Source: Pyrus communis (taxonomy: Eukaryota > Streptophyta > Magnoliopsida > Rosales > Rosaceae). From it: a stretch of 64,000 nucleotides of DNA. The notes beneath the pieces are model-generated. The model worked only from the letters and a program-made list of their open reading frames with translations, did no database searches and had not been told where the DNA came from. This document shows, piece by piece, positions 3,201 through 64,000 of the stretch (within the stretch, counting starts at the first letter, position 1; every line of letters starts with the position of its first letter). The position numbers were made by a program, and so were the translations under genes. The stretch spans positions 15,936,222 to 16,000,221 of the forward strand of contig NC_084818.1 of NCBI RefSeq assembly GCF_963583255.1. The letters run 5' to 3'.

Positions 3201-4164
3201 TGGACAGCGGAGCTGCTCTCAGCGCCAAGAACAAACTTGGGTTTATTGATGGATCAATCAAGAGCCCTGCAATCACTGATGCCAAGTATTCAATTTGGTA
3301 GAGATGCAACGACATGGTCTTGTCATGGATTTGGCAGTCGTGCTAGGCAATATAACTCGCAGTATACTCTACTACAAATCTGCATTAGTAGCATGGAAGG
3401 ATTTTGAGGATTGATTCTAGCAAGGAAACGATTCAAGGATCTATCAAATTCGACAAGGACAACTATCCGTTTCAGATTATTACACAAAGTTGAAGGCTCT
3501 TTGGGATGAATTGGCATCATACCATAAGCCAATTGCTTGTGAATGCGAGGGATCTAAGATATGTGTAGAAAGGGAGGAAAAGGAGAAGGTCATGCAGTTT
3601 TTAATGGGGTTGAACGAGAGTTACTCAACCATACGAGGCTCTATCTTGATGATGAGTCCACTTTCAGATACACGACGAGTCCATGGGTTGATTCTACAAC
3701 ACGAACACCAAATACACGTGGCACATTGTCGTGAACCTGCTGCCCAAGCAATGCAAATAAGTTGTTTGACAACGCCAAAAACATGCTCTGGTGGTAGCAA
3801 TTCCAATTCAAGCAAGACATTCAAATGCAGCTACTGTGAAGGAGGACATCCAGTAGAACATTGCTTTTTCCTTATTGGATTTCCTGAAGGTCACAAATGG
3901 CATGGGAATAATGAGCAGCCCAGGAATAAACATACAAATCTAGCATCCCACAATGTTGATGCACCTCAGTCACAAGCCACTAACATTGATACAACCAAGG
4001 CATCTACCTCTAACAACCCAACGTTCACAACTGAGGAGTACAATCAACTCATGGCTCTACTTTTCAATAAGAACGATAAAGATCAATCATTCGCACATGC
4101 AACATGTATATATACACCCACCTACAATATTGCACAACATGATCCGCATTCAACATTATATTAG
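3201..4164 (+). pseudogene. Element B gag (UBN2/copia type) with zinc knuckle
   Basis: The N-terminal part near 3201-3300 reads SAKNKLGFIDGSIKSP, typical of copia gag, and is then broken by stops. The longest intact piece is 3490-4164 (224 codons) with the UBN2-like core (KEKVMQFLMGLNESYSTIRG) and a CCHC knuckle of spacing C-x2-C-x4-H-x4-C (CSYCEGGHPVEHC) around 3826-3866. The stops in the N-terminal third make it a pseudogene. Confidence 0.85.
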
Positions 4165-4167
4165 ATT

Positions 4168-5501
4168 ATGGATAACGGGGCAACAGATTGCATTTCTCAT
4201 TTATCACCCAGTCATAATAAAACTAAAACACAACATGATTTTGTTGGTTTACCAAATGGAGGACAAGCTACAATTGAAAGCACTGGGTCTATTAAATTTT
4301 CACTAGAGATATCTCTTGATGGAGTTTTACAGGTGCCAAAATTTTGTGTGAACTTGTTGTATGTGAGTAAATTAACTCGGGCGTTGAGATGTATCGTGAT
4401 ATTTTATCCGAATTTTTGTGTTGTGCAGGACATGGATGCGAAGAGGACGATTGGCTTGAACAAGCATTTTAATGGGCTCTACTACCTCACACCAAGCCCA
4501 AAACCTCACCTAGCTAATCATGTTAACCGCACCTCGGGACTTTGGCACCAACGTCTTGGACACCCATCATCAGCCCCTCTTCACTTTTTATCCTAGGCCA
4601 TCCTAGAAATCATATTTGATTCTATGCATGTTTGTCATGTTTGTCCTTTAGCAAAGCAAACTCCCTTATCTTTTGTTTCAAGTTCAATAAAATTGATTGC
4701 ACCTTTTGATTTGATTCATTGTGATATTTAAGGACCACACAAAATTCATATACACTCCGGAGCACGTTATTTCCTAACTATTGTAGATGATTTTACTCGC
4801 TTCACATTTTTAAACCCGATAAACAAGCCTTGTTGAAATCATTTTTTTCTTAGGTCAAAACACAATTTAATCGTGAAATTAAAGTTCTAGTGCCGACAAT
4901 GGGGGTGAATTTGTATCGATGCGTGCGTTTTTAGATGCTTATGGCACCATTTTCCAACATACTTGTGCTCACACTCCTCAACAAAACAGGGTGGTTGAGC
5001 GCAAACATCGGCATCTTTTGAATGTTAGTCATGCATTACGTTTTCAAGCCAATTTACCTTTAAAGTTTTGGGGGGAAAGTATCCAAACCGCTTGTTATCT
5101 AATAAATCGCCTTCCTACACCCTTACTTTCACATAAATCTCCCTATGAACCCTTGCACGGCACATCACCTCAATATTCTCATCTCTGGGTTTTTGGGTGT
5201 TTATGCTATGCCACCAATCTTACTCCTTCGCACAAGTTTGACGCACATGCACATCACTGTTTTTTTTATGGGATATCCCCTTGGCCAAAAGGGCTATCGA
5301 GTCTATGACCTTGATAGCAAGCAAATCTTCACAACTCGTGACGTCGTTTTTAACGAGCACATTTTTTCGCTTGCTACCTCACCACCAAAAAATCAACTAA
5401 ATTCCCCAATATTACCCATTCCTTATGATGACACAAATTCTCCTTTAGTCTCAGCCAAAACACCTACACCATCAAATCTAAGCCCACCTACACACCCATA
5501 A
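4168..5501 (+). pseudogene. Element B protease and integrase
   Basis: 4168-4596 starts MDNGATDCI; the protease active site is D-N-G where D-S-G or D-T-G is usual. It then runs into the GAG-pre-integrase motif GLWHQRLGHPS. The zinc-finger cysteines CHVCPLAKQ follow near 4630. The integrase core has the first Asp region with a stop next to it near 4728, DNGGEF near 4895, and the catalytic-Glu motif RVVERKHR near 4987. The C-terminal GKxFxF-type region follows (FGCLCYATN, then a frameshift near 5270). Two or more stops or frameshifts break the frame. Confidence 0.85.
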
Positions 5502-5880
5502 ATTCAAACTCTATTACAGACACCTCGTTATTATCATCTTCCTATTCCCCATCTACAAACCTTACAAGTTCAAACTCTCACACACACAACACAGAGAACC
5601 TCTCACCTCTCACACCAGACACCTAATTACCACCACTAGAACTCGCTCCTCCACCCCAGCCCGTTCTTCCTCTACTTCATTGATCCGACTGAATTACAAA
5701 TCCACCTGCTCGTTTCAGTGACTATCAGACTCATCATGTTGCTTTGCTTATGCCCAGCGCCATCCCTTCCTCCATGTCCGGTATGTGATATCCACTTCAA
5801 CGGTACGTCTCCTACTCTCGTTTATCTATGCTCACCAATCATTTGTACACAACATATCTCACCTGGTCAAACCAACTTCT

Positions 5881-6005
5881 TATAAGTAGGCCCGTCATGA
5901 CCCCAAATGGATTACATCCATGAATTCTGAGATTCAAGCTCTTGAAGACAACCACACCAAACTATGGTTCCTTTGCCTAGCCAATGACCCATTGGATGCA
6001 AATGA
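5881..6005 (+). pseudogene. Element B reverse transcriptase, N-terminal piece up to the C insertion
   Basis: Frame-corrected codons read the copia RT start and stop at PIGC-K just where element C enters. The other half resumes at 11899 as KWVFKIKYHFDG. The split falls inside the conserved GCKWVFKIKY motif. Confidence 0.8.
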
Positions 6006-6451
6006 TGTTAGATTATATATAGTGAAAACAAAAGTACTCAACATATCCAATTAACCACTAACCTTGTGAAGACATTTTAGCAGAAAATAAAGGTTCTTCT
6101 CCTCTTAACACTATTTGTATGCACTGTCAATCAATGGGGCTTGATGTTTCTGTTTTCGTGTGTTGTGCGAGTGTAGGGACCCTTTGCTTATAATGTAAAC
6201 AATGGTCTTTGATAAGGATACTTCCCATCATGTAATCCTTATCAAAGTCATCAGTTTGATAACCCTTATCACTAATATCCAAAGCATCCACATCAAAATG
6301 GTTAACACCAATTGCACCGGGACTTCTTTAGGTTATATTTCAGTCTTTATACATTCCTTAATAACCAACAAGTATTGTCATACACAAACTTTTATGATCT
6401 CAATCCCTCATGCACGTGCTAAACAAGTGTGCAGCTCTTATTAGACTTACA
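6006..6451 (-). repeat. 3' LTR of element C
   Basis: 446 bp, ends TGTTAGATTATATATAG and GACTTACA on the plus strand. The adjoining internal bases 6452-6466 are, on the minus strand, the purine-rich tract CTAGTGGGAGGA used to prime plus-strand synthesis. Confidence 0.9.
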
Positions 6452-6982
6452 TCCTCCCACTAGAGCCAACACTTGTTTAATACAAATGCTTACTGATATG
6501 GGAACATACTTGAAAGGCCATGAGTTTAGTATTAACAAAATCCATGATTACAAGTTTCAGTCAAAAGATAATATCCATGAAGAACTAAAGGGAATCATAT
6601 CTTAATACACAAATATTATCCCCAGAATTACAATCATGAAATTAGTAATCATAAGAAACTCCAACAAGATATGAAAATAATGAAAGATATATAAAATGTA
6701 ATGTTTCTGCAGTACATCTTCCATTAAGGTCCTCTTTAAGACTAGTATACTAGTCCTTCTTTATTGCTTCGAATTGAAGCCTTTAAGTTGCTTTCTTTCA
6801 TAACAATTTAATGTACTACATCATACCCAAAAACTGCACTTTTATGGGAAAACCTTTGCAACTAAGCAGCACAATACTTTATTAACTAAGATAATTGAAC
6901 TACAAAGTCTTTATGCATGTAATATGAAAAACCAAAATACTACAATCAAAGAACAAAATATTAAAGCATTCACCTCCACTCC

Positions 6983-7401
6983 ACTATTCTTCGATATCAA
7001 AAGCAGCCAATACTCTCATCTTCTTCACATGTTTCTTGAACACCACAGCAGGGACAACCTTGTTCAATGGGTCTGCAATCATCAAACTTGTCTCCAAATA
7101 ATCAACTTTCACCAAACCTTTCCATCACCTTTTCACGAGCAACCAGAAATTTAATATCCAAGTTTCTTGTTGCATTGGACATTTCGTTATTCTTTGTGAA
7201 AAAGATTGCAGCGTTGTTGTCACAATAAAGCTGCGTAGGTCTTGAAATTGAGTCCACTACACGAAGGCCAATGATGAAATTCTTTAACCAAACTGCTTGA
7301 TTTACAGCTTCACAACAGGAAAGATATTCAGCAACCATCGTGGAGGATGTCACTGTGTCCTGCTTGACACTCCCCCATGAAACAACTCTTGTAGCCATCA
7401 T
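6983..7401 (-). pseudogene. Element C RNase H domain and pol C-terminus
   Basis: Contains STMVAEYLSCCEAVNQAVWL, YCDNNAAIFF and the C-terminal ADPLNKVVPAVVFKKHV block in two overlapping frames, with a stop near 6983. The copia RNase H core (A-E-Y and D-N) is recognisable. About 500 bp of untranslated sequence separates it from the purine tract and 3' LTR. Confidence 0.82.
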
Positions 7402-7632
7402 AAAAACTTATCTAGAGGTTGATTTTAAGTCATTCGAACACCCTGCAAAATCTGAATCACTATACCCTTCAAGCACCAAATGATCAGTCTTCCTACAAAT
7501 TAACATATGTGACTTTGTCCTCTGTAAATATCTTAAAACCCTCTTCCCGACATTCCAAAGTGCTTCTCCAGCATCGGACTAAAATCTTCCCAAAACACTT
7601 ATTGTAAATGCAAGGTCTGGTCTTATACAAAC

Positions 7633-8438
7633 CTATGCATACATCAGACTTCCTACCAATGATGCATATGGTTTATCTTTCATTGCATCTCTTTCTAAAT
7701 AATTCTTTGGACACTGCTCCTTACTTAATGTGTCACCCCTTGAAATAGGTAACTCAGTAATGCCGCAAGTCAACATATTAAATCTCTTTAAAACCTTCTC
7801 TATATATCTTCTTTGTGACAATCTAAGCAAGCCCCTTTGTCTATCTCTCTTGATTTCAATTCCCAACACATACCTTGCTTCACCTAAATCCTTCATCTCA
7901 AAGCTCTTTTTCATGAAACACTTTGTGTCATCCAACTGGTCTTTAAATAAATACAAGCATTAAATGGATTTTCCATAAAACCATATTCTTTAACTACATG
8001 GTGAAACTTCAAATACCATTGTCGTGATGTTTGTTTTAATCCATATATGGATTTCTTAAGTTTACATACCAAGTGCTATTTCCCTTTTTCTTGAAACCCT
8101 TTTGGTTGTTTCATACATATGTCCTCCTCCAAATCACCATTTAAGAAAGCCGTTTTAACATCCATTTGATGTAAAAACAAATCAAAGTGTGCTACCATAG
8201 CCATTATCACTCTAAAAGCATCTTTAGTTGATATTGGACTAAAAGTCTCTTTATAATCCACACCCTCTTTTTGAGTAAATCCTTTCGCCACTAATCTTGC
8301 TTTGTGCCTTTCGATATTACCATTGGAGTCTCTCTTCATCTTGAACACCCATTTTGAACCTTTTGGTTTGACACCCTTAAAAGGTTCCACCAATTCCCAT
8401 ACACCATTGTCGTACATCGAATTGAGTTCATTTTTCAT
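7633..8438 (-). pseudogene. Element C reverse transcriptase, YVDD block deleted
   Basis: The upper part (8076-8438) has VWELVEPF, KWVFKMKRDSNG, ARLVAKGFTQKEGVDY and QMDVKTAFLNGDLEEDI. After a stop, the frame continues KLKKSIYGLKQTSRQWYLKFH at about 8060-7990. The text then jumps directly to DDTKCFMKKSFEMKDLGEA, so the segment with the catalytic Y-V-D-D is absent. The lower frame (7633-7956) has YVLGIEIKRDR, LSQRRYIEKVLKRFNM and the start of the RNase H connection. Confidence 0.85.
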
Positions 8439-8749
8439 GGCTTCAATCCACTTTTCTGAGTTGTCTTCGAGATTGCATCGTTGAAGTTAGTAGGGTTTTC
8501 AAACTCTAATAAATTTTCTTCATAATTAGCCAAGTATACAAAATCACTTAGAATAGTAGGCTTTCATACCCTAGTAGACTTTCTTAAAAGAATGTCAACA
8601 TGCTACACTAGGTTTAAGGGTTGAATGGGCTGCTGCTCATTCTCATTCACGACTCCACCATAATTATTTGTTGCAACATCATCTTGAACATGCTCATTTT
8701 AAAATTCTTCCACTTCACTTGTAATTACTGCTTCATGATCGTCAATGCC

Positions 8750-9816
8750 TCATTCTTCTTCTGCACACCCAATGATGTCGATCATTATTGTTTGTGGTGC
8801 AAGTTTCTTAACATTAGTTTTATCAGTGGCTATCTCCTTGAGAATAGAACCCTTCAAATTTATTCCAGGATCTTCTTCTTGTAAATGCTTGAAGAAAATG
8901 GCCCTTCGAGTTTCAACAATCTTGCTACTGTTATTAGGACAATAAAAGCGATACCCCTTTGATCTATCTGCATACCCCACAAAATAACAACTTATGGTTT
9001 TGGCATCTAGCTTCTTAGCATTTGGGTTGTAAATCTTCGCCTCTACCTTGCATCCCCAAACGTGGAGATGGTTCAAATTGGGCTTCATCCCTGCCCACAA
9101 TTCAAACGGTGTTCCTTCCACTGATTTTGTAGGAACTCTGTTGAGGATATAGCTTGCAGTTTTCAACGCCTCACCCCATAGAAATTCTAGCAAGTTTACC
9201 TTACATATCATACTTCTTACCATATCAAGTAATGTCCTGTTTCTTCTTTTTGCCACCCTATTTTGCTTAGGGGTTCTTGGGGTAGTATATTGGGCAACAA
9301 TCCCATTATTTTGTAGAAAAATGGCTTGATCATATTTACCATAGTATTCCCCTCCGCTATCGGACCTTACAATCTTTATTTTTCTTTCCAATTGGTTTTC
9401 AACTTCATTTTTATAAATTTTAAAAACCTCAAGTGCCATAGATTTTTCATAATTAAGTATACATAACAAAACCTAGAAAATTTGTCAATGAAGGTGATAA
9501 AATACTTGTTTCCTTAAATGGTTTTTGTTGGAAAGGGACCACAAATATCCGTATGAATAATTTCCAAAATTTGATTACTACGATTTGATCCCTCCTTTCT
9601 AGACTTAGTTAATTTTCCTTTGACACACTCCACACAAAAATCAAAATCTTCAAAGTTTAACGATGGCAAGATTTCATTTTTAACCAAAATTTCCATTCTT
9701 CCTTTTGAAATTTGACAAAGCCTTTTGTGCCAAGGATTTGAAGATTGTTGTGGCTTAAGTTTTTGGTCTTCCATGTTTAAAACAATTTGATCAAGTTTTA
9801 ATTTGAACGTAAACAT
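8750..9816 (-). pseudogene. Element C integrase
   Basis: The upper frame (9514-9816) holds the GAG-pre-integrase zinc motif (WHKRLCQ, then CVECVKGKLTKS) and the first catalytic Asp in HTDICGP. The lower frame (8750-9469, 239 codons) holds the second Asp (VRSDSGGEY) and the region of the catalytic Glu, which here reads RVAKRRNR: Lys replaces Glu. The remainder shows the usual LLDMVRSM and [16 protein letters not shown] blocks. A frame break near 9490 separates the two parts. Confidence 0.85.
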
Positions 9817-9883
9817 CCCATCAACTATAAAACCAGTGCAAACATGAGAAGAATTATAAAAAAAAGGTTGAAGTCAATCTTAT

Positions 9884-10222
9884 TTATAGTAAAATAAAAC
9901 CCAACAATACCAGCCTTGAAACTAAAACTAACTTCCTTCTCATAGAAGGTACATAAACAACATTGTCTAAATCTAAATAAAAATCAAAACCAAACTTAAG
10001 CCTAACGGTGCCTATAGCCTTGACTTCAACTCTTCTTCTATTGACTTCATCTTTATTTGGTGTTTTCTTTGTGATGAAGTCCTGCAATGAATTTGTAATG
10101 TGAATAGAAGAGCCAAAGTCAAGCCACAAAGCATTGCTAGGTATATCAATCAAATTGGACTCAAAACAAGCAAAAACATTTGAAAAAAATATTTTTACCT
10201 TTCTTTGCCTCTTGTTTGGCAA
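9884..10222 (-). pseudogene. Element C aspartic protease region
   Basis: 112 codons. The expected catalytic triplet D-S/T-G is replaced by D-F-G within WLDFGSSIHITN, followed by the conserved flap and C-terminal motif (VRLKFG, NVVYVPSMRRKLVLVSRL). The loss of the Ser/Thr probably inactivates it. Confidence 0.8.
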
Positions 10223-11005
10223 GCCATGACTTGTATTTAGGACAGTTTCTCTTCATATGGCCTGCCTTTTTGCAAAAATAACACTTAAAAATTGTTGAGT
10301 TATTAACCTTGAAGGTCTTTTTAGAGGGAGGAATGTTTCTGGCAAAATTCTTTTTGGTAGTATCCAAGTTATTGATATTGGCATTCTTTGCATAACCCTG
10401 AACAAAATTCACCGACTCACCCTTTTCCTTTTCAGCCCTTTCCTTATTAATCCTCACTTCCCCACCCACAGATATAGATATTAATTCATTGACATCCCAC
10501 TTTGCTTGCAGTGCATTATAGGATACTTTCAACTGAGTATAAGAATCATGCAAGGAATTCATGATGACATGGACCTAAAATGTTTCAGAAATGGGTACCT
10601 CGAGTGTTCTAAGTTTCCTAGCAATGTCGGTAACCTTGAGAATGTACTAACGGAGACTACCTTCACCATATCTAATGGTTGTCAGCGAGTTCATCAAGTT
10701 TCCAGTTTCTATCTTTCCTTTGCATTAGTTGCATCTGGGAAACCTCCATGAACTACATCAATCATAGACCTTTTGTTTATCATGAGACATATTTTGTTCG
10801 ATTTCTCCCATTTTTCATGCTTGGATCTCTGGCTGGAATTGCATCCTTCATTTGGCATTGGTGGTTCCTTGGTTCTCAGCACTAGATCCATATCCATGAC
10901 ACCCAAAAGTATCTCCAAATCTTGTTTCCACTTCTTATTGTTGACACCGGTGAGGTGTTCAACTGTGTTGAGGTTTATGGAACTTAGGTTCAATGCTGTA
11001 TTCAT
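10161..11005 (-). pseudogene. Element C gag with zinc knuckle
   Basis: Two overlapping frames cover it. The N-terminal frame (10709-11005) has LTGVNNKKWKQDLEILLG, and the C-terminal frame (10161-10562) has SYNALQAKWDVNELISI and the knuckle CYFCKKAGHMKRNC (C-x2-C-x4-H-x4-C) near 10255. At least one frameshift or stop between them makes it non-functional. Confidence 0.85.
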
Positions 11006-11437
11006 ATAGAATGAAAATATTAATCTTTAATCCCCAATCTTTATATCACAGACCCATAAATCTTTGGATTAACGAGTTATATGAAAATTTTCTTTAATCA
11101 TGTCACCTTTATAACCAACATTCGAATTTCTGTAATCAAAATTATAAATGTTTGTGGCTTGACAATAGTAATTCGATTCAAACATTTGTATGTAAAGTGA
11201 TATACCGCTTAAATTCTAAGCATGAAAGAATGATCTTCTTTAGATGACCAGTGATCACGTCTTGAATTTAAGCACCATCACTGGTATGTACAACTGAATG
11301 AAAATATATGTCTTTATGATCAAGGATAGCTTTGTGTTCATATATATTTCCCTAATGATATACTACCAGTTCTGTAACCTGCGAGACAAGAAAAATTTCT
11401 TGATGCCTTCAACATAAGGTTAAATGATATGTGAAGT

Positions 11438-11449
11438 GCTCTGATACCA
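11438..11449 (-). other. Primer binding site of element C
   Basis: TGGTATCAGAGC on the minus strand, two bases from the 5' LTR: the standard tRNA-Met site. Confidence 0.88.
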
Positions 11450-11451
11450 AA

Positions 11452-11898
11452 TGTTAAATTATATATAGCGGAAACAAAAAAAACTCAACATATCCAATTA
11501 ACCACTAACCTTGCAAAGACATTTTAGCAGAAAATAAAGGTTCTTCTCCTCTCAACACTAACTGTATGCACTGTCAATTAATGGGGCTTGACGTTTCTGT
11601 TTTCATGTGTTATTTGAAAGTATGGACCCTTTACTTATATTGTAAATAGTGGTCTTTGATAAGGATATTTCCCATCATGTAATCCTTATCAAAGTCATCA
11701 GTTTGATAACCCTTATCACTAATATCCAAAGCATCCACATCAGAATGGTTAACACCAATTGCATCGGGACTTCTTTAGGTTATATTTTAGTCTTTATACA
11801 TTCCTTAATAACCAACAAGTATTGTCATATACAAACTATTATGATCTCAATCCCTCATGCATGTGCTAAACAAGTGTGCAACTCTTATTAGACTTACA
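11452..11898 (-). repeat. 5' LTR of element C
   Basis: 447 bp, plus-strand ends TGTTAAATTATATATAG and GACTTACA. It lies two bases from the primer site on the internal side. It is a near-identical partner of 6006-6451. Confidence 0.9.
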
Positions 11899-13290
11899 AA
11901 TGGGTCTTCAAGATCAAGTACCATTTTGATGGTACAAAGCCCGCCTTGTCGCAAAGGGGTTCACTCAACATGATAGCATCAATTACAAAGAAACGTTCAC
12001 TCTGGTTGCTAAACTAATTACTGTCCGTTGTCTTTTAACTATTATCGTTGTTCAGAATAGGCATTTGCACCAGATGGATGTGCAAAATGCATTTCTTCAT
12101 GGTGCACTACATGAGGAAGTATATATATTACCGCCTCCTGGTTATCATCGACAAGGGGAGACCATGGTTTGTCGACTCCACAAGTCTTTATACAAACTCA
12201 AACAGGCTTCTCGCAACTGGTTCCAACGATTCTCATCTGCCATTCAAGAAATTGGTTTCCAATAGTCACGTGCTGATTGCTCGTTGTTTACTCAGGTTCA
12301 TGAAAATTCTATTACTGTGGTGTTGCTTTATGTTGATGACATGATCATTACAGGGAATGATGATGAAGCAATTAGTAACCTCAAGAAGTTTCTTAGTGGT
12401 TGTTTCCGAATTAAAGATCTCAGACCATTAAAATACTTCCTTGGTGTAGAAGTTGCACGTTCAAAAGCAGGGATTTCCATTTGTCAATGTAAATATACCC
12501 TGGATATATTGGAAAAAGCCGGTTTACTTAGAGTAAAACCTGCCAAGTACCTATGGAACTTGATTTGGTATTGACAACAACAGGAAGTGATGCTCTCAAG
12601 GACCCAACTCGATATTGATGTTTGATTGGGAAATTGATCTATCTTACAATCACAAGGCCAGAGATTACGTATGCAGTGAACACTTTCAGCCAGTTCATGC
12701 GAGAACCCAAGCTTCATCATCTTAAGGCAGCACACCGTCTTCTCCAATACCTAAAGGAAGCACCAGGACAAGATTTATTGTTTTCTTCAGGAAACCAACT
12801 CAATTTGATTGGCTATTGTGATGCGAATTGGGCTAGATGTCTAATCACACACCGATCAATGACAGTCTTTTGCATTTTTCTTGGTAAGTCACTTGTATCA
12901 TGGAAAAGTAAAAAAGCGAGTCACGACCGCAAGATCTTCAGCAAAAGCTTAATATCGCTCCATGGCTGCAACCACTTGTGAGCTTACTTGGCTAAGGTAC
13001 TTATTGAAAGATTTACGTGTACATCCCCCTGAGCCAACGAGATTGTTTTGCGACAAACAAGATGCCTTACATATTGCAGCAAATCCCATGTATCATGAGC
13101 GGACTAAACACATAAAATTGGATTGTCACATAATCCGTTAAAGTATTCGACGGGGAGAAGTCAAGACCACTCATGTGCAAATAGGGAATCAGATAGCTGA
13201 CATATTTATGAAGCCGCTAAGAGCACATGCCTTCCACTCGCATCTTAGCAAGTTGGGTGCCATTGACATCCACACTCCAACTTGATTGGG
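11899..13290 (+). pseudogene. Element B RT (C-terminal part) and RNase H
   Basis: It resumes with KWVFKIKYHFDG and continues with HLHQMDVQNAFLHGALHEEV (12065 onward). The catalytic block VVLLYVDDMIITGND (about 12310-12355) keeps all four YVDD residues. RNase H at 12622-12981 has RPEITYAVNTFSQFM and YCDANWA, and the tail at 13040-13290 has KHIKLDCHIIR and QIADIFMKPL. Several frameshifts (near 12265, 12574 and 12960) break the frame. Confidence 0.88.
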
Positions 13291-13292
13291 AG

Positions 13293-13505
13293 TGTTAAAG
13301 GAAATAAAATAGTTAACTATCTGATATGATTTGGAGTGTTTGTAGGATACATTAATCCATCTTGGAGTGATTGTAGGAGATGATTGTAATAGCATAGAAT
13401 TAGTTCCAGTTTACCTAGAATAGCAATCACAATTCTTATTTAAATTCATACCTCTGTACAGCTTCAGTTATGTAATACAAAATACATTCACATAACAATT
13501 TGATA
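13293..13505 (+). repeat. 3' LTR of element B
   Basis: Begins TGTTAAAGGAAATAAAAT after the tract TTGATTGGGAG and ends AACAATTTGATA. It is the partner of 2781-2992. Confidence 0.85.
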
Positions 13506-15170
13506 AAATGCAACATCAATAATTGAATTTCCAAACCAAGTGGAAGAAAGTGAGGGTAATTATAATGATGATTTTGTCGTTCAACATGGCAATTGTAATA
13601 TTGATGTGTTGTTGCATGGTAAGCATCAAAGTGATGATAATGTAGGGTGCATGGAGGTGACAACTCCAAGTGGCAATGACCGCCGACTAGAGCATGGCAC
13701 TGAAATTGGAGTATTATTTAATGGTGAGAAACATGCAGAAAATCAGGAAGGTCACGTGGAGGAAGCAGCTGCAAAAGGTAGCAACCACTGACTGGACTCA
13801 CCAGTTTTGGCAGTTGGTGATGTTCCACCATTTTGAGGAAATCAAATAGGGTGAGAAAGTCAACATTCTCATCATATTTTATGTATTTGGCAAAGTCTGA
13901 TTTCAATTTATCAAAGTTCGATGATCCTGGACTTTCAAACAAGCCATCTTGAATCCAAAAGCAGACAAATGGATTAAAACATGCACCAAGACAATGGTAC
14001 CTAAAATTTCATCGAGTTGTAAAAAGGAATGTTTTCATAGAGAACCCCTCAGACAATTGTGTTTATTTGAGAGTTAGTGGAAGCACTTTTATCATTCTAG
14101 TTTTTATATGGATGAAATATTTGCTTGCCACAAACAGTCATAGCTTGTTGGATGAAACCAAAGTTTTGTTGCAAAGACACTTCAAGATGAAAGACCTGGG
14201 AAAGATCACTTATGTCCTAGGGATTGAGATCAAAAGAGAGAGAAGAATAGGCTTACTGGGATTGTCACAGAGGGTGTACATTGAAAAGGTAATGGAAAGA
14301 TTTAATGTCTTCATTTGGAAATAAAAAATGCCTATATCAAAAGGGAGATAAAATGAGTAAGCTGCAATGCCCAAATACTGACTTGGAGAGAGATTATGGA
14401 AAACAAGCCATATGCATTTTTGGTTAGTAGTTTGATGTATGCACAAGTGTGCACAAGGCCTGACTTAGCCTTCACCATTTCGGTGCTTGGTAGGTTCCAA
14501 TCCAATGCTGGAGAGACTTACTAGAACACAACACCAAGAGTGCTGAGATATCTTCAGAGAACTAAAGATCATACGTTAGTGTACAGAAGAACATAGGACC
14601 AAAGATCATATGTTAGTCTATAGAAGGACATAAAACATAGTTTTAGAAGGTTATAGTGACTTAGATTTCACGGGTTGTCCAAATGATATGAAATAAACGT
14701 GGGGCTATGTTTTCTTAATGTCATATGGAGCAATTTCTTGGAAGAGAGTAAAACAACAGACTCTGGCTACTTCAACTATGGTTGCAGAATACTTGTCTTA
14801 TTGTGAAACATTGAATCTAGCCATTTGGTTGAAGAATTTCATAACACAACTACAAGTGGTGGACTCAATCTCGAGACTTATATAGATTTATTATGATAAC
14901 AATGCCGCTATATTTTTCACTTAGAATGATAAAAGGTCAAATGCAACAAGGAACTTTGATATCAAGTATCCCATTACTCAAGAAAAAGTGGTAGCTAGTT
15001 TGGTCAAGATTGATTACTTGGAGACGAATTCAATGATTGATGATCCATTGAATAAGGTTGTTCCCATGGCAGTTTTCAAGAAGCATGTCACGAGCATGGG
15101 GGTATTGGGTGATTGTGATGCAACAAACTCATGCAAGAAACCAGTGGGAGCAAATTGATGTAGGAAATTA
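13506..15170 (+). pseudogene. Element A RT, RNase H and pol C-terminus (right half)
   Basis: 13506-14050 is an RT-upstream linker that I can only partly read. At 14067-14324 the frame gives the RT piece in which the YVDD position has decayed (VFIWMKYLLATN), followed by HFKMKDLGKITYVLGIEIKRE. RNase H is recognisable around 14755-14960 (STMVAEYLSYCE, YYDNNAAIFFT) and the tail DDPLNKVVPMAVFKKHV at about 15040-15090, ending near 15158. It is the continuation of the left half, displaced by the B insertion. Confidence 0.85.
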
Positions 15171-54625: not shown

Positions 54626-54983
54626 TAAAGGATTTTTTTTTTTTAATTTTATTTATTAACTTGAGAAGGCATTCCACTAGAGCAATTCACCGTGGGTTAA
54701 TCCCCTAGGGAATTGGCTCTTTAATCCCCAAAGGTAACAATTCAATACTCATGCCATTTAATGTAAAGTATAATTAATCAGATATGATTCAAGATGATAA
54801 TCAAGAAGGATTATACAGTTGTTAACTGATTGAATTTCTTTTGTTACTTGATTTTATGGCTTTAGGTAACCATTTATGTAGGAGAAGAAAATTAATATCA
54901 TTCTTTTCTTTTTGTTTTTTTGCCTTTTATTTGGGAAACTCTGTTTGTGTTGCTTTGTTATTGTCTTTGAAAGGAAGAGAGGT

Positions 54984-55014
<31 letters not shown>

Positions 55015-55272
55015 AATTTAAATTTGTACTTTGTAGTTCGATATGGATGGATATTTGAATCTGTACTAGCAACCATTCGGAAAGAATTGAAAACTTATTA
55101 TAATTGTATCAATGTATATTTTCAAGAAACCATGCTCAGGTTGTTGTCTTAGTGGACTTTGCAGATTATGGTCTTTTGTTTCAATTGATTTTATATTTTT
55201 TCTTTTCTTTTTGGGTTTGTATTGATTGAACTTACTAGCATTTGACCTTGTATATATTATTGGAAATCCTAG

Positions 55273-55451
55273 GGTACTTGTGACTTCCGAAAGAACAAAT
55301 GGCAGCAAGAAAGAAAGCATTTTCAACAGTCCAAGAGGTTTTTGAGACGCATGGTGCCATAACCCTTGAAACTCCACTTTTGGAATTGAGAGAAACCTTT
55401 ACGGCAAAATATGGGAAAGATTGGGAATCGATTGATGATCTTCCCGAAGAG
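55273..55451 (+). pseudogene. HisRS-like exon 2, copy a (+)
   Basis: 179 nt between an AG acceptor (CCTAG at 55268-55272) and a GT donor at 55452. It encodes the class II HisRS start motif: KEQMAARKKAFSTVQEVFE, then HGAITLETPLLELRET and KYGKDWESIDDL. One base is missing just after the GTCDF codons relative to copy c, so the frame from exon 1 would shift. An internal ATG at 55299 remains open to the donor. Confidence 0.85.
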
Positions 55452-56040
55452 GTATTTCTCAGTTTCAACTGTTGTCAACTTGAGGGAAGTTTTGTTTTTA
55501 TTTCTAGTAGCTAATTTCAATGTTTTTCTTGTTGTGACTCGTACAAATGTAGTGTGAAGAGAGACGCGGGTTAAAGGCTTAACTCAGTTTGATTCTTAGC
55601 ACACACTCTATTTTATCCAAAGATTACTCTTTTTTATACTTGGAGGTCTTTGATGATCTTTAGTATTTCCAAAGATGGTACATTATTCCAACCAAGAACA
55701 ACATTCCTGAGAATAATAAATTTCAACTAACAAACGAAATTCAATTAGTTAACAACAGTACAATCCTTCTTGATTATCATCCTGAATCACATCTGATCAA
55801 TTATACTTTACATTAAATAACACAAACACAGTTCCCCAAATAAAGAGGTAAAAAATAATAATAATAAAGAAAGCTGGAAATTTTCTCCTACATGATGAAT
55901 AAATGGTTACCTAAAGCCACAAAATCAAGTAACAAACAAAATTCAATCAGTTAACAATAGTATAATTCTTCTTGATTATCATCTTGAATCATACGTGATC
56001 ATTATACTTTACATTAAATGGCATGAGCATTAGATCTTGC

Positions 56041-56088
56041 CATTGGAAGTCTTCCACTCTCATTGCTTTCTATTGTTATCTCCGCCAT
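56041..56088 (-). pseudogene. HisRS-like exon 1, copy a (-)
   Basis: 48 nt: MAEITIESNESGRLPM. The exon end and donor are altered (ATG-GCAAG instead of AAG-GTAAG as in the other copies). About 170 bp of CT/GA-rich 5' flank follows to the right, then the 24-nt inverted half of the same exon at 56259-56282. Confidence 0.78.
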
Positions 56089-56656
56089 TGTCGAAGCTCA
56101 GAGGAGGAGAGAGAGAAAGACTGTGAGGGGTAATAGCCGGGTTTTGAGGTAGGGATTTTCTTTATGTGCGCTAGGGTTCCACTTTCACAGTGTCGAGAAA
56201 ATAGGGCTTAGGGCACAAGGTAATTGGCCTGATATAATAAAACTGCAAGAGAGCTGGTAATGAGAGTGGAAGACTTCCAAAGGTAAGATTGTAGTGCCAT
56301 TTATGTAAAGTATAATTGATTAGATGTGATTGAAGATGATACTCAAGAAGGATTATACTATTGTAATTGATTGGGTTTCGTTTGTTACTTGAAATTTCTT
56401 TATTATTCTCAGAAATGTTGTTCTTGGTTAAAATAATCTATCATCTTTCGAAATACTAAAAGATAACTGAAGACATCCAAGTACAAAAAGAGTGATCTTT
56501 GGCTAAAATAGAGTGTGTGCTAAAAATCAAACCGAGTTAGGCTTTTATCCCCACCCCCTCGTCACACTGCATTTGTATGAGTCACCACAAGAAAAACATC
56601 GAAATTATAAAAACAAAAATCCACTTAAGTTGACAACAATTGAAACTGGGAAATAC

Positions 56657-56833
56657 CTTTTTAGGAAGATCATAAATCGATTCCCAAGTTTCCACATAGT
56701 TTCCCATGAGGGTTTCTCTCAAATCCAATAGTGGAGTTCAAGGGTTGTGGCACCATGCATCTCAAAGACCTCTTGGAGTGTTGAAAATGTTTTCATTCTT
56801 ACTGCCATTTGTTTTCCGGAAGTCATAAGTACC
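56657..56833 (-). pseudogene. HisRS-like exon 2, copy b (-)
   Basis: 177 nt, the inverse of copy a at high identity by eye but with several small deletions (the KEQ codons and the VFE region differ). The acceptor CTAG and GT donor are both kept. Exon 1 for the same direction lies at 57326-57372. Confidence 0.82.
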
Positions 56834-57325
56834 CTAGGATTTCTAATAATATAAACAGGGTCAGAATGCTAGTAAGTCTACTCATCACAAACCCAAAAAG
56901 AGAAAAAAAATCATAAAATTGGTTGAAACAAAAGATCATATTCTGCCAAGGCAACAGAGACAGCAACCATAGTATGGTTTCTTGGAAATATACATTAACA
57001 ATTATAATAAGTTTTCAATTCTTTCCATATGATTACTTTTATAGATTCAAACATCTATCTGTATTGAACTACAAAGGACAAAGTTAAATTATCTTAAAAA
57101 AAAAAACTCCCTTCCTCTCAAAGACAATAACAAAGTAACACAGTTTCCCAAATAAAAAGGTTAAAAAAAATGACATCCATTTTCTTCTACATGTCGAATA
57201 AATGGTTACTTAAAGCCACAAAATCAAGTAACAACAAAATTCAATCAATTAACAATAATATAATCCTTCTTGATTATCATCTTAAATCATATCTGATCAT
57301 TACAGTATGAGTACCAGAATCTTAC

Positions 57326-57372
57326 CTTTGGAAGTCTTCTACTCTCATTGCTTCTATTGCTATATCCGCCAT
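57326..57372 (-). pseudogene. HisRS-like exon 1, copy b (-)
   Basis: 47 nt. It starts ATGGCGGATATAGCAATAG and has lost one A of GAAAGC, so the frame shifts before the donor (AAG-GTAAG kept). Confidence 0.75.
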
Positions 57373-57953
57373 TTTCGGAGCTTAGAGAGAGACTGTGTGA
57401 AGGGTTGTAGTTGGGTTTTGAGGTAAGGTTTTTCTATATGAGTGTAATGGTTCCACTAACGTCGAGAAAATTGGGCTTAGGGCACACAGTAATTGGCCTG
57501 ATATAATGAAACTGCAAGAGATCCATTTAATGTAATGAGAGTGGAAGACTTCCAAAGCTAAGATTCCAGTGTTCATGTCATTTAATGTAAAGTCTAATTG
57601 ATCGGATGTGATTCAAGATCATAATCGAGGAGGATTATACTGTTGTTAGTTGGTTGAATTTCGTTTGTTACTTGAAATTTATTATTCTCAGGAATATTGT
57701 TCTTGGTTACAATAATCTATCATCTTTGGAAATACTAAAAGATTATCAAAGATATTTAAGTACAAAAAGAGTGATCTTTGGCTAAAATAAAGTTTGTACT
57801 AATAATCAAACCAAGTTAAGCTTTTATCCCCACTACCTTTTCACACTGCATTTGTATGAGTCACGACCTGAAAAACATTGAAATTTACTTAAAAAAAATA
57901 AAAACAAAAACAAAACTCCACTTGAGTTGACAACGGTTGAAACTGAGAAATAC

Positions 57954-58133
57954 CTCGTCAAGAGGATCATAAATCTATTCCCAATCTTTCCCATATTTTG
58001 CCGTGAGGGTTTCTCTCAGTTCCAAAGGTGGAGTTTCAAGGGATGTGGCACCATGCATCTCAAAGAACTCTTGAACTATTGAAAATGCTTTCTTTCTTGC
58101 TGCCATTTGTTCTTTTAGGAAGTCACAAGTACC
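57954..58133 (-). pseudogene. HisRS-like exon 2, copy c (-), best preserved
   Basis: 180 nt, 60 codons in phase with exon 1 copy c. Reads GTCDFLKEQMAARKKAFSI, then FFEMHGATSLETPPLELRE, TLTAKYGKDWE, one stop (TAG), IYDPLDE. LPK-GT-DF-KEQMA--KAF and HGA-LETP-ELRETL--KYG-D match cytosolic histidyl-tRNA synthetases, including motif 1. The single stop and lack of the remaining exons make it a pseudogene fragment. Confidence 0.85.
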
Positions 58134-58485
58134 CTAGGATGTCCAATAATATATACTAGGTCATAATGCTAGCAAGTCCACTCAGAACAAAAGCCAAACA
58201 AACAAAAAACAAAAAAAAAAAAATCATAAAATCAGTTGAAAAAAAAAAAACCACAGTTTCCCAAATAAAAAGGTAACCAAAAAAAAACAAAAAAAAAAAA
58301 ACAAAATGGAATGACCTTAATTTTCTTCTCTTACATATCGAATAAACAGTTACCTAAAGCAACAAAATCAAGTAACAAATGAAATTCAATCAATTAATGA
58401 CAATATAATCCTTCTTGATTATCATCTTGAATCATATTTGATCAATTATACTTACATGAAATGGCATGAGTACCGGAATCTTACC

Positions 58486-58533
58486 TTTGGAAGTCTTCCA
58501 CTCTCATTGCTTTCTACTATTATCTCCACCATT
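58486..58533 (-). pseudogene. HisRS-like exon 1, copy c (-)
   Basis: 48 nt, MVEIIVESNESGRLPK, open and ending in AAG-GTAAG. Joined to copy c of exon 2 it gives the conserved LPKGT junction in frame. Confidence 0.78.
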
Positions 58534-59115
58534 GTCATAGGTTAGAGGGAGGGAGAGAGATTGTGTGAGGAGTTGTAGCCGGATTATGAGGTAGGTTTTT
58601 CTATACGAGCGCTAGGGTTCCGCTTTCACAGTGTCGAGAAAAGTGGGCTTCTGGCATAAGGTAATTGGCTTGATATAATAAAACTGCAAGAGAGCCATTT
58701 AATGTAATGAGAGTGGAAGACTTCCAAAGGTAACATTCCAGTACTTATGCCATTTAAAGTAAAGTATAATTAATCATATGTGATTCAAGATGATAATCAA
58801 GAAGGATTATACTATTGTTAAGTGATTGAATTTCGTTTGTTACTTTAAATTTATTATTCTCAGGAGTGGTGTTCTTGGTTAGAATAATCTATCATCCTTG
58901 AAATACTTAAAGATCACCAAAGACATCCGAGTACAAAAAAAGTGATATTTGGCTAAAATAAAGTGTGCGCTAAGAATCAAACTTTTTTATCTTTTATCCC
59001 CACCCCCTCTTCACACTGCATTTGTATGAGTCCTGACAAGAAAAACATTGAAATTAACTACGAAATATAAAAATAAAACTCCACTTAAGTTAACAACAGT
59101 TCAAACTGAGAAATC

Positions 59116-59770
59116 CCTCCCCTACAGGCCACTTGCTCACTTAGGATGTTTCTTTGTGCTCTTTGTTGTTGTCTACATCTAGTGCGCCTCACAAGACATA
59201 TTGAGTAGTGCACAACACACAACACATTTGGATAAGTCACTTACTTGAGCTCTACATATACCTCAATTATATGGATATGGGTCTTTCTAAACATAATGAT
59301 TACAATTATACACCAATAAGAGGTATTGCCTTGGGTCCATTTATCGCCTTGTAGATCAACTTGAATTTTTGGTTGCATGCTTGAACTTGCGATTCATGCT
59401 TATGAAATTCCGGTGTCAACACACACGCAAAGGACAAAATTGTCCAAGAAAATGAATAAATTTGAATGGAACCAAGCCAATGCATTTGAGGTTTCTGAGT
59501 GCATCACATACTGATAGACGAGAGAAATAGAGGGAAGCAAAAAGATATAAAATTAAAGACATAACAGAAGATCGACAAGGATGAACTTTGACACGTGAAG
59601 TTGTTTATTTATAATGAAGGGCTATAAAAACTAGAGAAACTGAGATCCAAATTACCAAACATAAACATTAAAAGGCAATACTAAATGAAAATAAGATAAA
59701 TCCCTGGTAAATAAAAGCATATATGATAGTTCAGGAAAAGGGACCAAACTTGTTCCTGACCCATAGCAAG
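59116..59770. other. Array end and UGT 3' flank
   Basis: The array breaks off at about 59115, right at the position where exon 2 should start (GAGAAATCCC). The rest is unassigned, with UGT 3'UTR toward 59770. No gene seen. Confidence 0.5.
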
Positions 59771-61923
59771 TCATTCACCAAGTTGGAGTGCCTCCTTAAG
59801 CAATCTCTCAAAATTATTGTATGATGATCCTCCAATATCAGTAGCTTCAACAGCTTTTTTCTTCCATTCCTTTGCCTTTTCCCTCATCTTCATCCCTCCT
59901 TCTCCTTCCAGCATTTCCTTAACCAGTGCTTCAATTTCATGGCGCTTCACATCAGGGCTCACCTCCATTCCAATCTCCCAAGTTGTGCATGAGTACCGAC
60001 AATTCGTTTGTTGCTCCGCAAAGAAAGGCCAACAAATTACTGGCACACCATGAGATATAGTTTCAATGGTAGAATTCCAACCACTGTGTGTTAGGAAAGC
60101 CCCAACAGATGGATGCGCCAACACTTGGTCCTGTGCACACCAACCTGTAATATAACCCCTATCCTTAATCTCCTCCAAAAATTCCTTTGGCAAAATTGGT
60201 GAGTCGCCCTTTACCACGTCAGGCCTAACTATCCATAAAAATGGGTGCTTGCTATTTGCCAGCCCCCATGCAAACTCAATCAAATGCTGGCCTGTCATCA
60301 TCGTTACGCTGCCATAATTGACGTACACAACTGAATTGGGTTTCTTTTTATCAAGCCATTCCAAACATTTTGTGTCTTCTTTCCATAAGTTTGAGTTAAG
60401 TGACTTGCTTTCAGGGAAATGCCTGCCAAGCAAATTAAGGGGGCCGATGGTGTATATGTTGGGGAACATTGTCGATATTACCTTTAACACTTCGTGTTCG
60501 AATTCGTCAAATGTGTTGAAGATGATTGCAGAAGAGTTCAAACAGTTAAGTGATTCGGATCCCAAGTAATTAAACATTATGTCGTTGAGATCAGTAACTC
60601 TAATGAAACTTGGGATGTCCTTGAGCCGAACATTTTTCATACCTGGGATCCAATCAGTTGGTGTATCGAGTGTGCCATCATGCATGAAATTCTCATCTGA
60701 AATGCATGGAAGGTGAAGCATGTGTGATGATAGATAATTATGTTGACGGTTAGTTGATAAAAAAAAAAAAAATGAGATCTCATAGTTTTATTGGTGATTG
60801 GTACAAAATCCCATAATTTAATCCGACAATCATTTCAACTCGGTCAGGACCGACTCTTACAAAGTTAAGATTGATTTTATTAAACCAAGTGATCACTACA
60901 AATTGATTGATCTTCCCCAATAACGTGGCAGAAAAGATTTCTGAATAAAATTAACGCATTGATGTACTAAATTTGGCAACCTGTTTATTAGACTGGTCCA
61001 CTTCTATTAGTAGTGTGATGTGATGCTGGACTAGACCCAATCACACACTAGAAAACAGGACCAGAATCTATGAGCCCCATAATTAATAATAAATCAAAAT
61101 GAACACAAGAATATAAAAGGTACACAGGAAAGAACAAAGTGTCAAGTCTAGGTTATCTTATCCTTTGGACATGCTGGATTGCAGAGAAGATAAGAGTGCT
61201 GGAGTGCATAGAAGGTACGAGGGAACACTGGAAAGACTAAAGAATCATCTTCCTGGATAAACAAAGGAATATGCCCTTGGAAGGGAAGGATGTGGATGAT
61301 TTAACTCAAGTGTGTCATGATAATTTATGTATACAAAAATGTTCATATACATAAATAAACTGATTAACGACAAAAGCGTAAAAAAAACAAATGGAAATTA
61401 AAGAAGTACCTTTGAACGGAATAATGCCACGTTTGACAAGTTCGCTGTATTGCAAGTACCCCATGAAGCCACAAGCAGAGGCCGTCCATAACGTAACCTC
61501 CGGAATGCCTAATTCTCTAGCAGCTTTGCTCCCGAAGGTCATGGTACCATCTGCAACTATGCAAGTAACTTGTGGCACTTGAGATGAGGAATTGATCTTA
61601 GTCACTAGCTCTTTAAACGGACCAAGACAAGTTTTCTTAATGGAGTCAGATAAAGTTGGAACATCTTGGGTTCCATCCTTATCCGAAGGAGGCAACCCGT
61701 CCGGTATGGTCTCGAACACAAAGTCCGGTAGACCCTTAACGGAGTCGGGACCTTTTGACCGGATTAAACGGTTGTGGTTGAACTCGGTGTTGACAAAGGT
61801 TATGTGGAAGTCCCTTGAGTGAATAAACTTGGCCAATTGCATCATGGGGTTAACATGGCCTTGTGCTGGGTATGGGACAAAAACCGCATGCCCTTTTTTG
61901 GTTGCTCGTTCTAATGGACTCAT
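59771..61923 (-). CDS. UDP-glycosyltransferase, UGT85 family
   Basis: Transfers a sugar, usually glucose, from UDP-sugar to small acceptors in the cytosol. Exons 61410-61923 and 59771-60696 (intron 713 nt, GT-AG at the position typical of UGT85): 1440 nt, 479 residues, standard length. The N-terminal acceptor half has [20 protein letters not shown] with the catalytic-type His (residue 13 of the predicted protein). The PSPG box is in exon 2 ([40 protein letters not shown], then FAEQQTN); its last residue position is N after the expected Q. UGT85A members include cyanohydrin glucosyltransferases in Rosaceae and 7-deoxyloganetin-type enzymes; the acceptor here cannot be told from sequence. The in-frame upstream ATG at 62004 overlaps the region next to the TATA box, so 61923 is preferred. 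Confidence 0.93.
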
Positions 61924-63894: not shown

Positions 63895-64000
63895 GCACTA
63901 TTTCTATTGTTATCTCTGCGATTGTCGAAGCACAACCGGAGAGAGAGACTGTGTGAGGGGTTGTAGTCAGGTTCTGAGGTATGGTTTTTCTATATGAGCG
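63895..64000 (-). pseudogene. HisRS-like 5' flank and exon 1 piece at the window edge
   Basis: Same sequence as the promoter-side of the 55-59 kb array (GATTGTCGAAGC, GAGAGAGACTGTGTGAGGGG, TTTTTCTATATGAGCG). The start codon position reads ATC instead of ATG and exon 1 is cut at its left end near 63895. It continues past 64000. Confidence 0.7.

Follow-up and report, generated by a model that had tools for sequence, protein, structure and literature searches.

At the soybean chalcone synthase I locus, inverted gene copies lie close together and silencing is established. Here we describe a locus in pear (Pyrus communis) that likewise has inverted gene copies close together, but whose copies are truncated and decayed pieces of the gene for cytosolic histidyl-tRNA synthetase (HARS). 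The window, i.e., the whole 64,000-nucleotide stretch of DNA that was analyzed, corresponds to C16:15936222-16000221 (window base 1 = C16:15936222), and positions below are those of the window unless a contig (C16, C2, or C3) or locus is named. In rice, a search for inverted paralogous pseudogenes situated within 2 kb and having a stem of >100 bp yielded two such pairs (PMC2708354). The pear array has the geometry of the rice pairs (within 2 kb, stem >100 bp, loop <2 kb), but it belongs to an array with 10 copies in which the 5' region of the parent gene is also present; the rice study used small-RNA density as its other criterion. In Arabidopsis, one microRNA (miRNA) lies over two neighboring inverted pseudogenes and targets the gene from which they derive (PMC3237417). 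The pear array resembles such inverted-duplication miRNA genes in having target-gene fragments in opposed orientation; it differs in that its arms are ~1 kb long, have drifted like the other units and are known from sequence alone. Duplicated non-processed pseudogenes in tandem clusters are also similar, sharing retained introns, disrupted frames, a lack of coding constraint and a co-copied neighboring gene, except that the pear unit includes an inverted stub and one pear unit is flipped.

We consider it very probable that duplicated, non-processed pseudogene fragments of HARS make up the pear locus as a relic array, situated beside duplicated UGT85-like genes, and that it is not a regulator of HARS. 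A search of the 487-Mb genome (29 contigs) with the query 55273-55816, in which match counts are lower bounds, returned at least 21 matches: 18 on C16 (the query itself among them), one on C3 and two on C2. The matches on C2 and C3 are to HARS genes, which bears out the HARS origin proposed in the original prediction, a note made from the letters of the window. All of the C16 matches fall within 15990979-16030360, and the copy list, which rests on this search and on local blast of the retrieved stretches, indicates that the array spans C16:15990949 to ~16030360, i.e., past the end of the window. The original prediction had placed the array at 54728-59115, where it is indeed located, but the fourth, partial minus-strand unit ends at 59119 and the array continues well beyond it. 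At least 10 copies of exon 2/intron 2 are present (eight complete and two partial). The window holds units U1 (plus strand), a truncated unit, U2, U3 and a partial U4, and beyond it are V1-V3 and W1-W3 (W3 partial), plus a remnant consisting of a stub and the segment that we call P. The inverted geometry described earlier is real; however, the overall layout is mainly a head-to-tail tandem on the minus strand with a single flipped (plus-strand) unit at 54728-55818. This array stands out locally, since a scan of window 1-53000 with an exact 14-base seed gave no inverted repeat of ≥80 bp whose copies lie within 6 kb. The pear locus clearly illustrates how, in nature, part of an essential gene can be multiplied in tandem and inverted form together with its 5' region and then decay.

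The two parent genes are intact-looking HARS genes on C2 (plus strand) and C3 (minus strand). Their exon-1 frames comprise 449 codons ending ...RRLPKLPK (C2) and 443 codons ending ...RRLPKIAK (C3), and both loci also contain exon 2 (GTRDF...DLADQ, 180 nt) and exon 3, along with additional HARS-like frames. Between the two exons 1 the nonsynonymous distance (dN) is 0.10-0.11 and the synonymous distance (dS) is 0.173 or 0.195, depending on the method, which to judge from these sequences is weak constraint for a synthetase. The N-terminal region of C3 HARS exon 1 (L013:7062-8393) matches Pfam PF00221 (aromatic amino acid lyase; E 7.7e-8). Many of the 120 database relatives listed for this exon share the PF00221 label, and a few bear the name phenylalanine ammonia-lyase or aromatic amino acid lyase.

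Read in the direction of the gene, each unit consists of P (~150-190 bp), the end of exon 1, intron 1, exon 2, intron 2 and an inverted stub, and is a truncated, internally deleted HARS minigene. Exon 1 has lost ~1.3 kb between the start and its final few dozen bases; the exact joint is ambiguous because it falls in a short similar sequence. Intron 1 has lost ~0.79 kb; in U1, position 4051 of the C2 locus is joined directly to position 4837, at window 54877. The intron 2 of the units matches C3 up to position 4841, ~260 nt beyond exon 2, and alignment shows that C2 HARS is without most of this piece. The retention of parts of introns 1 and 2 that match C2 and C3 is characteristic of duplicated, non-processed pseudogenes. 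The inverted stub corresponds to C2 ~3900-4028 and sits ahead of the next P, so that P is flanked by two opposed stubs in 7 of 10 cases (aligned lengths 100-135 bp, 19 stubs). At the remaining three, namely the P at the left edge of block V, its counterpart in block W and the one in the remnant at 16030026, the inverted stub alone is whole; the short exon-1/intron-1 inversion that had been attributed to every unit is therefore found with both of its stubs at seven junctions. What lies between the opposed stubs had been missed: ~150-190 bp with the HARS 5' untranslated region (5'UTR) and start region. Searched individually, six of the 10 P segments match the 5' end of one or the other HARS gene (C2 for four, C3 for two; E 7e-5 to 1e-8), and all 10 align with HARS around the start codon. 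Their likeness to C2 and C3 HARS fades farther upstream, and the share of P that is putative HARS promoter is uncertain. The ATG is kept in 8/10, one of which has a stop two codons downstream (frame judged by eye).

Within the window, the flipped U1 (54728-55818, plus strand) comprises an exon-1/intron-1 stub, shortened intron 1, exon 2, part of intron 2 and the inverted stub, and has 81.8-86.5% identity by blastn to nine other unit copies, as well as matching C2 and C3 HARS. Its exon-2 copy (55273-55452, plus) has a 1-nt deletion near the 5' end, and the inverted stub that closes it (55723-55822, minus) is 88% identical to C2 HARS locus positions 3927-4026. At the flip breakpoint, 55818/55819 (blastn), U1 is joined to the truncated unit (55819-56049, minus), an exon-1 end and intron-1 start broken within intron 1. 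There follow a P segment of HARS 5' flank, 5'UTR and start (56066-56254, minus; C3 HARS 5' end, E 7e-5, and alignment), the inverted stub of U2 (56274-56392, plus) and U2 itself (56298-57297, minus), the arm that faces U1, with its exon-2 copy at 56657-56833 (minus; frameshifts and stops on translation). The next junction has a forward stub (57222-57334, minus), P (57385-57530, minus; C2 HARS 5' end, E 4e-8, and alignment) and the inverted stub of U3 (57549-57675, plus). U3 (57569-58226, minus) is 84.5% identical to U1, and its exon-2 copy (57954-58133, minus) has an in-frame stop. The last junction in this block has a forward stub (58366-58493, minus), P (58510-58702, minus) and the inverted stub of U4 (58721-58845, plus); all of these stubs were placed by stub alignment. 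This P, used as a query, gave 10 copies in a 53.8-kb stretch, and its HARS likeness comes from the alignment, with no match of its own. The partial U4 (58846-59119, minus) has part of intron 2 and the last bases of exon 2 and is 82.9% identical to C3 HARS over 258 columns. By blast, the next array block starts at 63901-64000 (minus) with a P, which precedes V1-V3 outside the window.

The exon-2 copies show no sign of coding function. All eight complete copies are frameshifted or stopped, as determined by alignment and translation (the V3 stop from alignment), and 82 changes in six units relative to the unit consensus are spread over codon positions 1, 2 and 3 as 29:27:26. The corresponding spread is 3:5:11 between C2 and C3 HARS exon 2, 9:11:11 between the unit consensus and C2, and 11:10:11 between this consensus and C3. 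As changes are evenly spread in the last two comparisons, coding constraint was probably lost before or during amplification. Disrupted frames and an absence of coding constraint are as expected of duplicated pseudogenes.

For distances we used six independent units, excluding the W units as recent copies and the partial U4. Their introns differ by a mean of 0.177 over 15 pairs (range 0.134-0.207), and the same introns of C2 and C3 HARS differ by 0.179 (295 sites). All 10 copies are 0.19-0.24 from C3 and 0.17-0.28 from C2 in their introns, the maximum being for the partial U4 (86 sites). In trees, C2 and C3 HARS form a group of their own (support 0.996 and 100), and apart from the recent U-W pairs most of the branching among units has weak support, a shape that reads as a star-like burst. 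We infer that amplification was roughly contemporary with the separation of the two HARS genes, and we presume that the age of the array is tied to the apple-tribe genome duplication. What was amplified in tandem would have been a truncated HARS copy ending in a foldback; one unit would have flipped afterward, and the units would have drifted since without function.

The explanation that survives best beside a relic, with which it is compatible and whose odds it overlaps, is that the array is a source of 24-nt small interfering RNAs (siRNAs) directing methylation of its own sequence, perhaps also of its UGT neighbors, without an effect on HARS. We regard this as a tentative possibility, by analogy with other pseudogenes: those of rice have mostly 24-nt siRNAs, with 53.4% of the antisense siRNAs being 24 nt, and those of Arabidopsis predominantly 24 nt (PMC2708354), and the end of U4 lies 655 bp from the coding end of a UGT gene. 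If the array is transcribed, the small RNAs would likely silence the array itself and not control HARS.

An improbable explanation is an active hairpin locus, in which a transcript from the captured putative HARS promoter (P, 57385-57530) would run through U2 and the antisense U1, fold, be diced and lower HARS messenger RNA. A HARS 5' region does lie upstream in the correct direction. The arms are also where they had been reported, with a plus copy at 55273-55816 and a minus copy at 56298-56833 (E 5.5e-160), a loop of ~480 bp between 55816 and 56298 and a second minus copy at 57582-58133 (E 1.2e-175 to the plus copy). Their length, given earlier as ~540 bp, was too short: the full facing repeat is 54777-55818 versus 56299-57297, or ~1.05 kb (1051 columns, 81.8% identity, blastn). 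The minus strand from 57560 to 54728 has a predicted fold of -1361.7 kcal/mol, far below that of four shuffles (-596.9 ± 16.5), with 478 of the 544 bases of 55273-55816 predicted to be paired with 56298-56833. For the facing arms alone the value is -788.8 versus -344.3 ± 5.4 kcal/mol, and for two stub junctions -206.0 and -217.9 versus -88.3 and -87.2 kcal/mol (12 shuffles each). The capacity for a long hairpin is thus borne out by prediction; so strong a fold is expected given the length of the inverted repeat, and a hairpin siRNA from a read-through transcript is possible on this model.

Several points weigh against our reading of the array as a relic. The arms are able, according to the predicted folds, to form long double-stranded RNA, the longest predicted helix in the 57560 to 54728 fold being 41 bp. 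Some units may still be transcribed, given that they have the HARS 5' region and that 8/10 P segments retain the ATG. Mismatches between arms are reported to keep hairpin RNA transgenes from self-silencing (PMC9263138), and by analogy arms with 18% differences might, if transcribed, remain active. Exact 21-mers to the HARS exon-1 end and exon 2 exist at 9/220 positions for C2 and 1/220 for C3, and the eight exact matches at the 160 positions of C2 exon 2 exceed the shuffle mean of 3.4, a value reached by 172/1000 shuffles. Finally, recent or weak selection would slip past the tests that we used.

These tests gave no support for a hairpin kept by selection. The facing pair U1-U2 differs by 0.172 in introns, versus the mean of 0.177 for the 15 pairs, and by 0.145 versus 0.159 in exon 2; over the whole aligned stretch the pair differs by 0.146, and U1 differs from the eight other unit copies by 0.135-0.170. 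The facing arms were no more alike than other copies, and the seven pairs of stubs opposed in cis showed no trend. The cis stub distances (0.188, 0.217, 0.137, 0.149, 0.143, 0.233, and 0.157) compare with means to the other 10 inverted stubs, in the same order, of 0.176, 0.201, 0.165, 0.150, 0.168, 0.202, and 0.163; the opposed stubs were therefore closer in four cases (one by 0.001) and farther in three, and the last two of these junctions are recent copies of earlier ones. The result most favorable to a kept hairpin is that at two junctions, 58366/58721 and 66437/66793, the opposed stub is one of the nearest (2/10 and 1/10 others closer), which was not repeated at other junctions.

With respect to HARS as a target, near matches are present in the exon-1 end and exon 2 (21-mers within two mismatches at 73/220 positions for C2 and 49/220 for C3), while the 5'UTR/start region had no exact 21-mer match (60 and 70 positions), C3 exon 2 had none at 160 positions, and the middle of exon 1, which is absent from the array, had no 21-mer below four mismatches (216 positions, every fifth base). 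In 12 tests the 21-nt matches to HARS exon 2 were in no clear excess over column shuffles (at least 172/1000 reached the observed value), and C3 tended toward fewer matches than the shuffles. Regulation of HARS by the array is possible, but the tuning of HARS that the original prediction suggested is unsupported because exon 2 is without constraint, the facing arms have not been homogenized and 21-nt matches are not in excess. The other option that it offered, a by-product, fits best, as a by-product of duplication. Tests of this kind, i.e., arm homogenization, retention of target matches and codon-position spread, require only sequence and help to tell hairpins kept by selection from those that are hairpins by geometry only. 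If RNA activity were shown, an aminoacyl-tRNA synthetase would be under siRNA control; our limited literature searches for an array of HARS copies or for siRNAs of HARS, with most subscription journals outside their coverage, found no report of this.

Still harder to sustain is a more elaborate version in which captured HARS promoters drive self-complementary U2/flipped-U1 RNA, whose siRNAs trim C2 HARS more than C3, as a dosage device arising from the HARS duplication. We consider it very improbable.

The inverted copies might instead be an assembly artefact. The W block repeats the U block, with 15992231-15999931 and 16016263-16023907 of C16 being 97.1% identical over 7725 columns, which would fit either genuine duplication or a second haplotype that was retained. 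However, the six units differ pairwise by 0.13-0.21 in introns, which is too much for haplotypes, and the flip has a breakpoint of its own, so an artefact seems highly improbable. The idea that the units are small genes encoding HARS-derived peptides can be rejected: although the consensus is open through exon 2, and the start region, exon-1 end and exon 2 join in frame (by eye, from the alignment), broken frames and the even codon-position spread refute it for the eight complete copies. A protein search with the U1 frame gave no candidate among the eligible proteins, which were only those 0.55-1.75 times its 71 residues.

The 7.7-kb piece that was copied along with the array units includes the first (window 59774-61923) of three near-identical UGT85/linamarin-synthase-like copies in the 53.8-kb stretch, which lie within C16:15995995-16026111 and whose aligned pieces are without stops. 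The neighboring glycosyltransferase is 99% identical over 91% of the query to a Pyrus communis linamarin synthase 2-like protein. Two lone ~137-bp pieces of HARS intron 1 are situated outside the array units, ~17 kb apart, at C16:16014777-16014916 and 16032009-16032146. Elsewhere in the window, positions 3421-13953 have frames on both strands that, judged by eye, resemble gag/pol pieces of a Ty1-copia retrotransposon.

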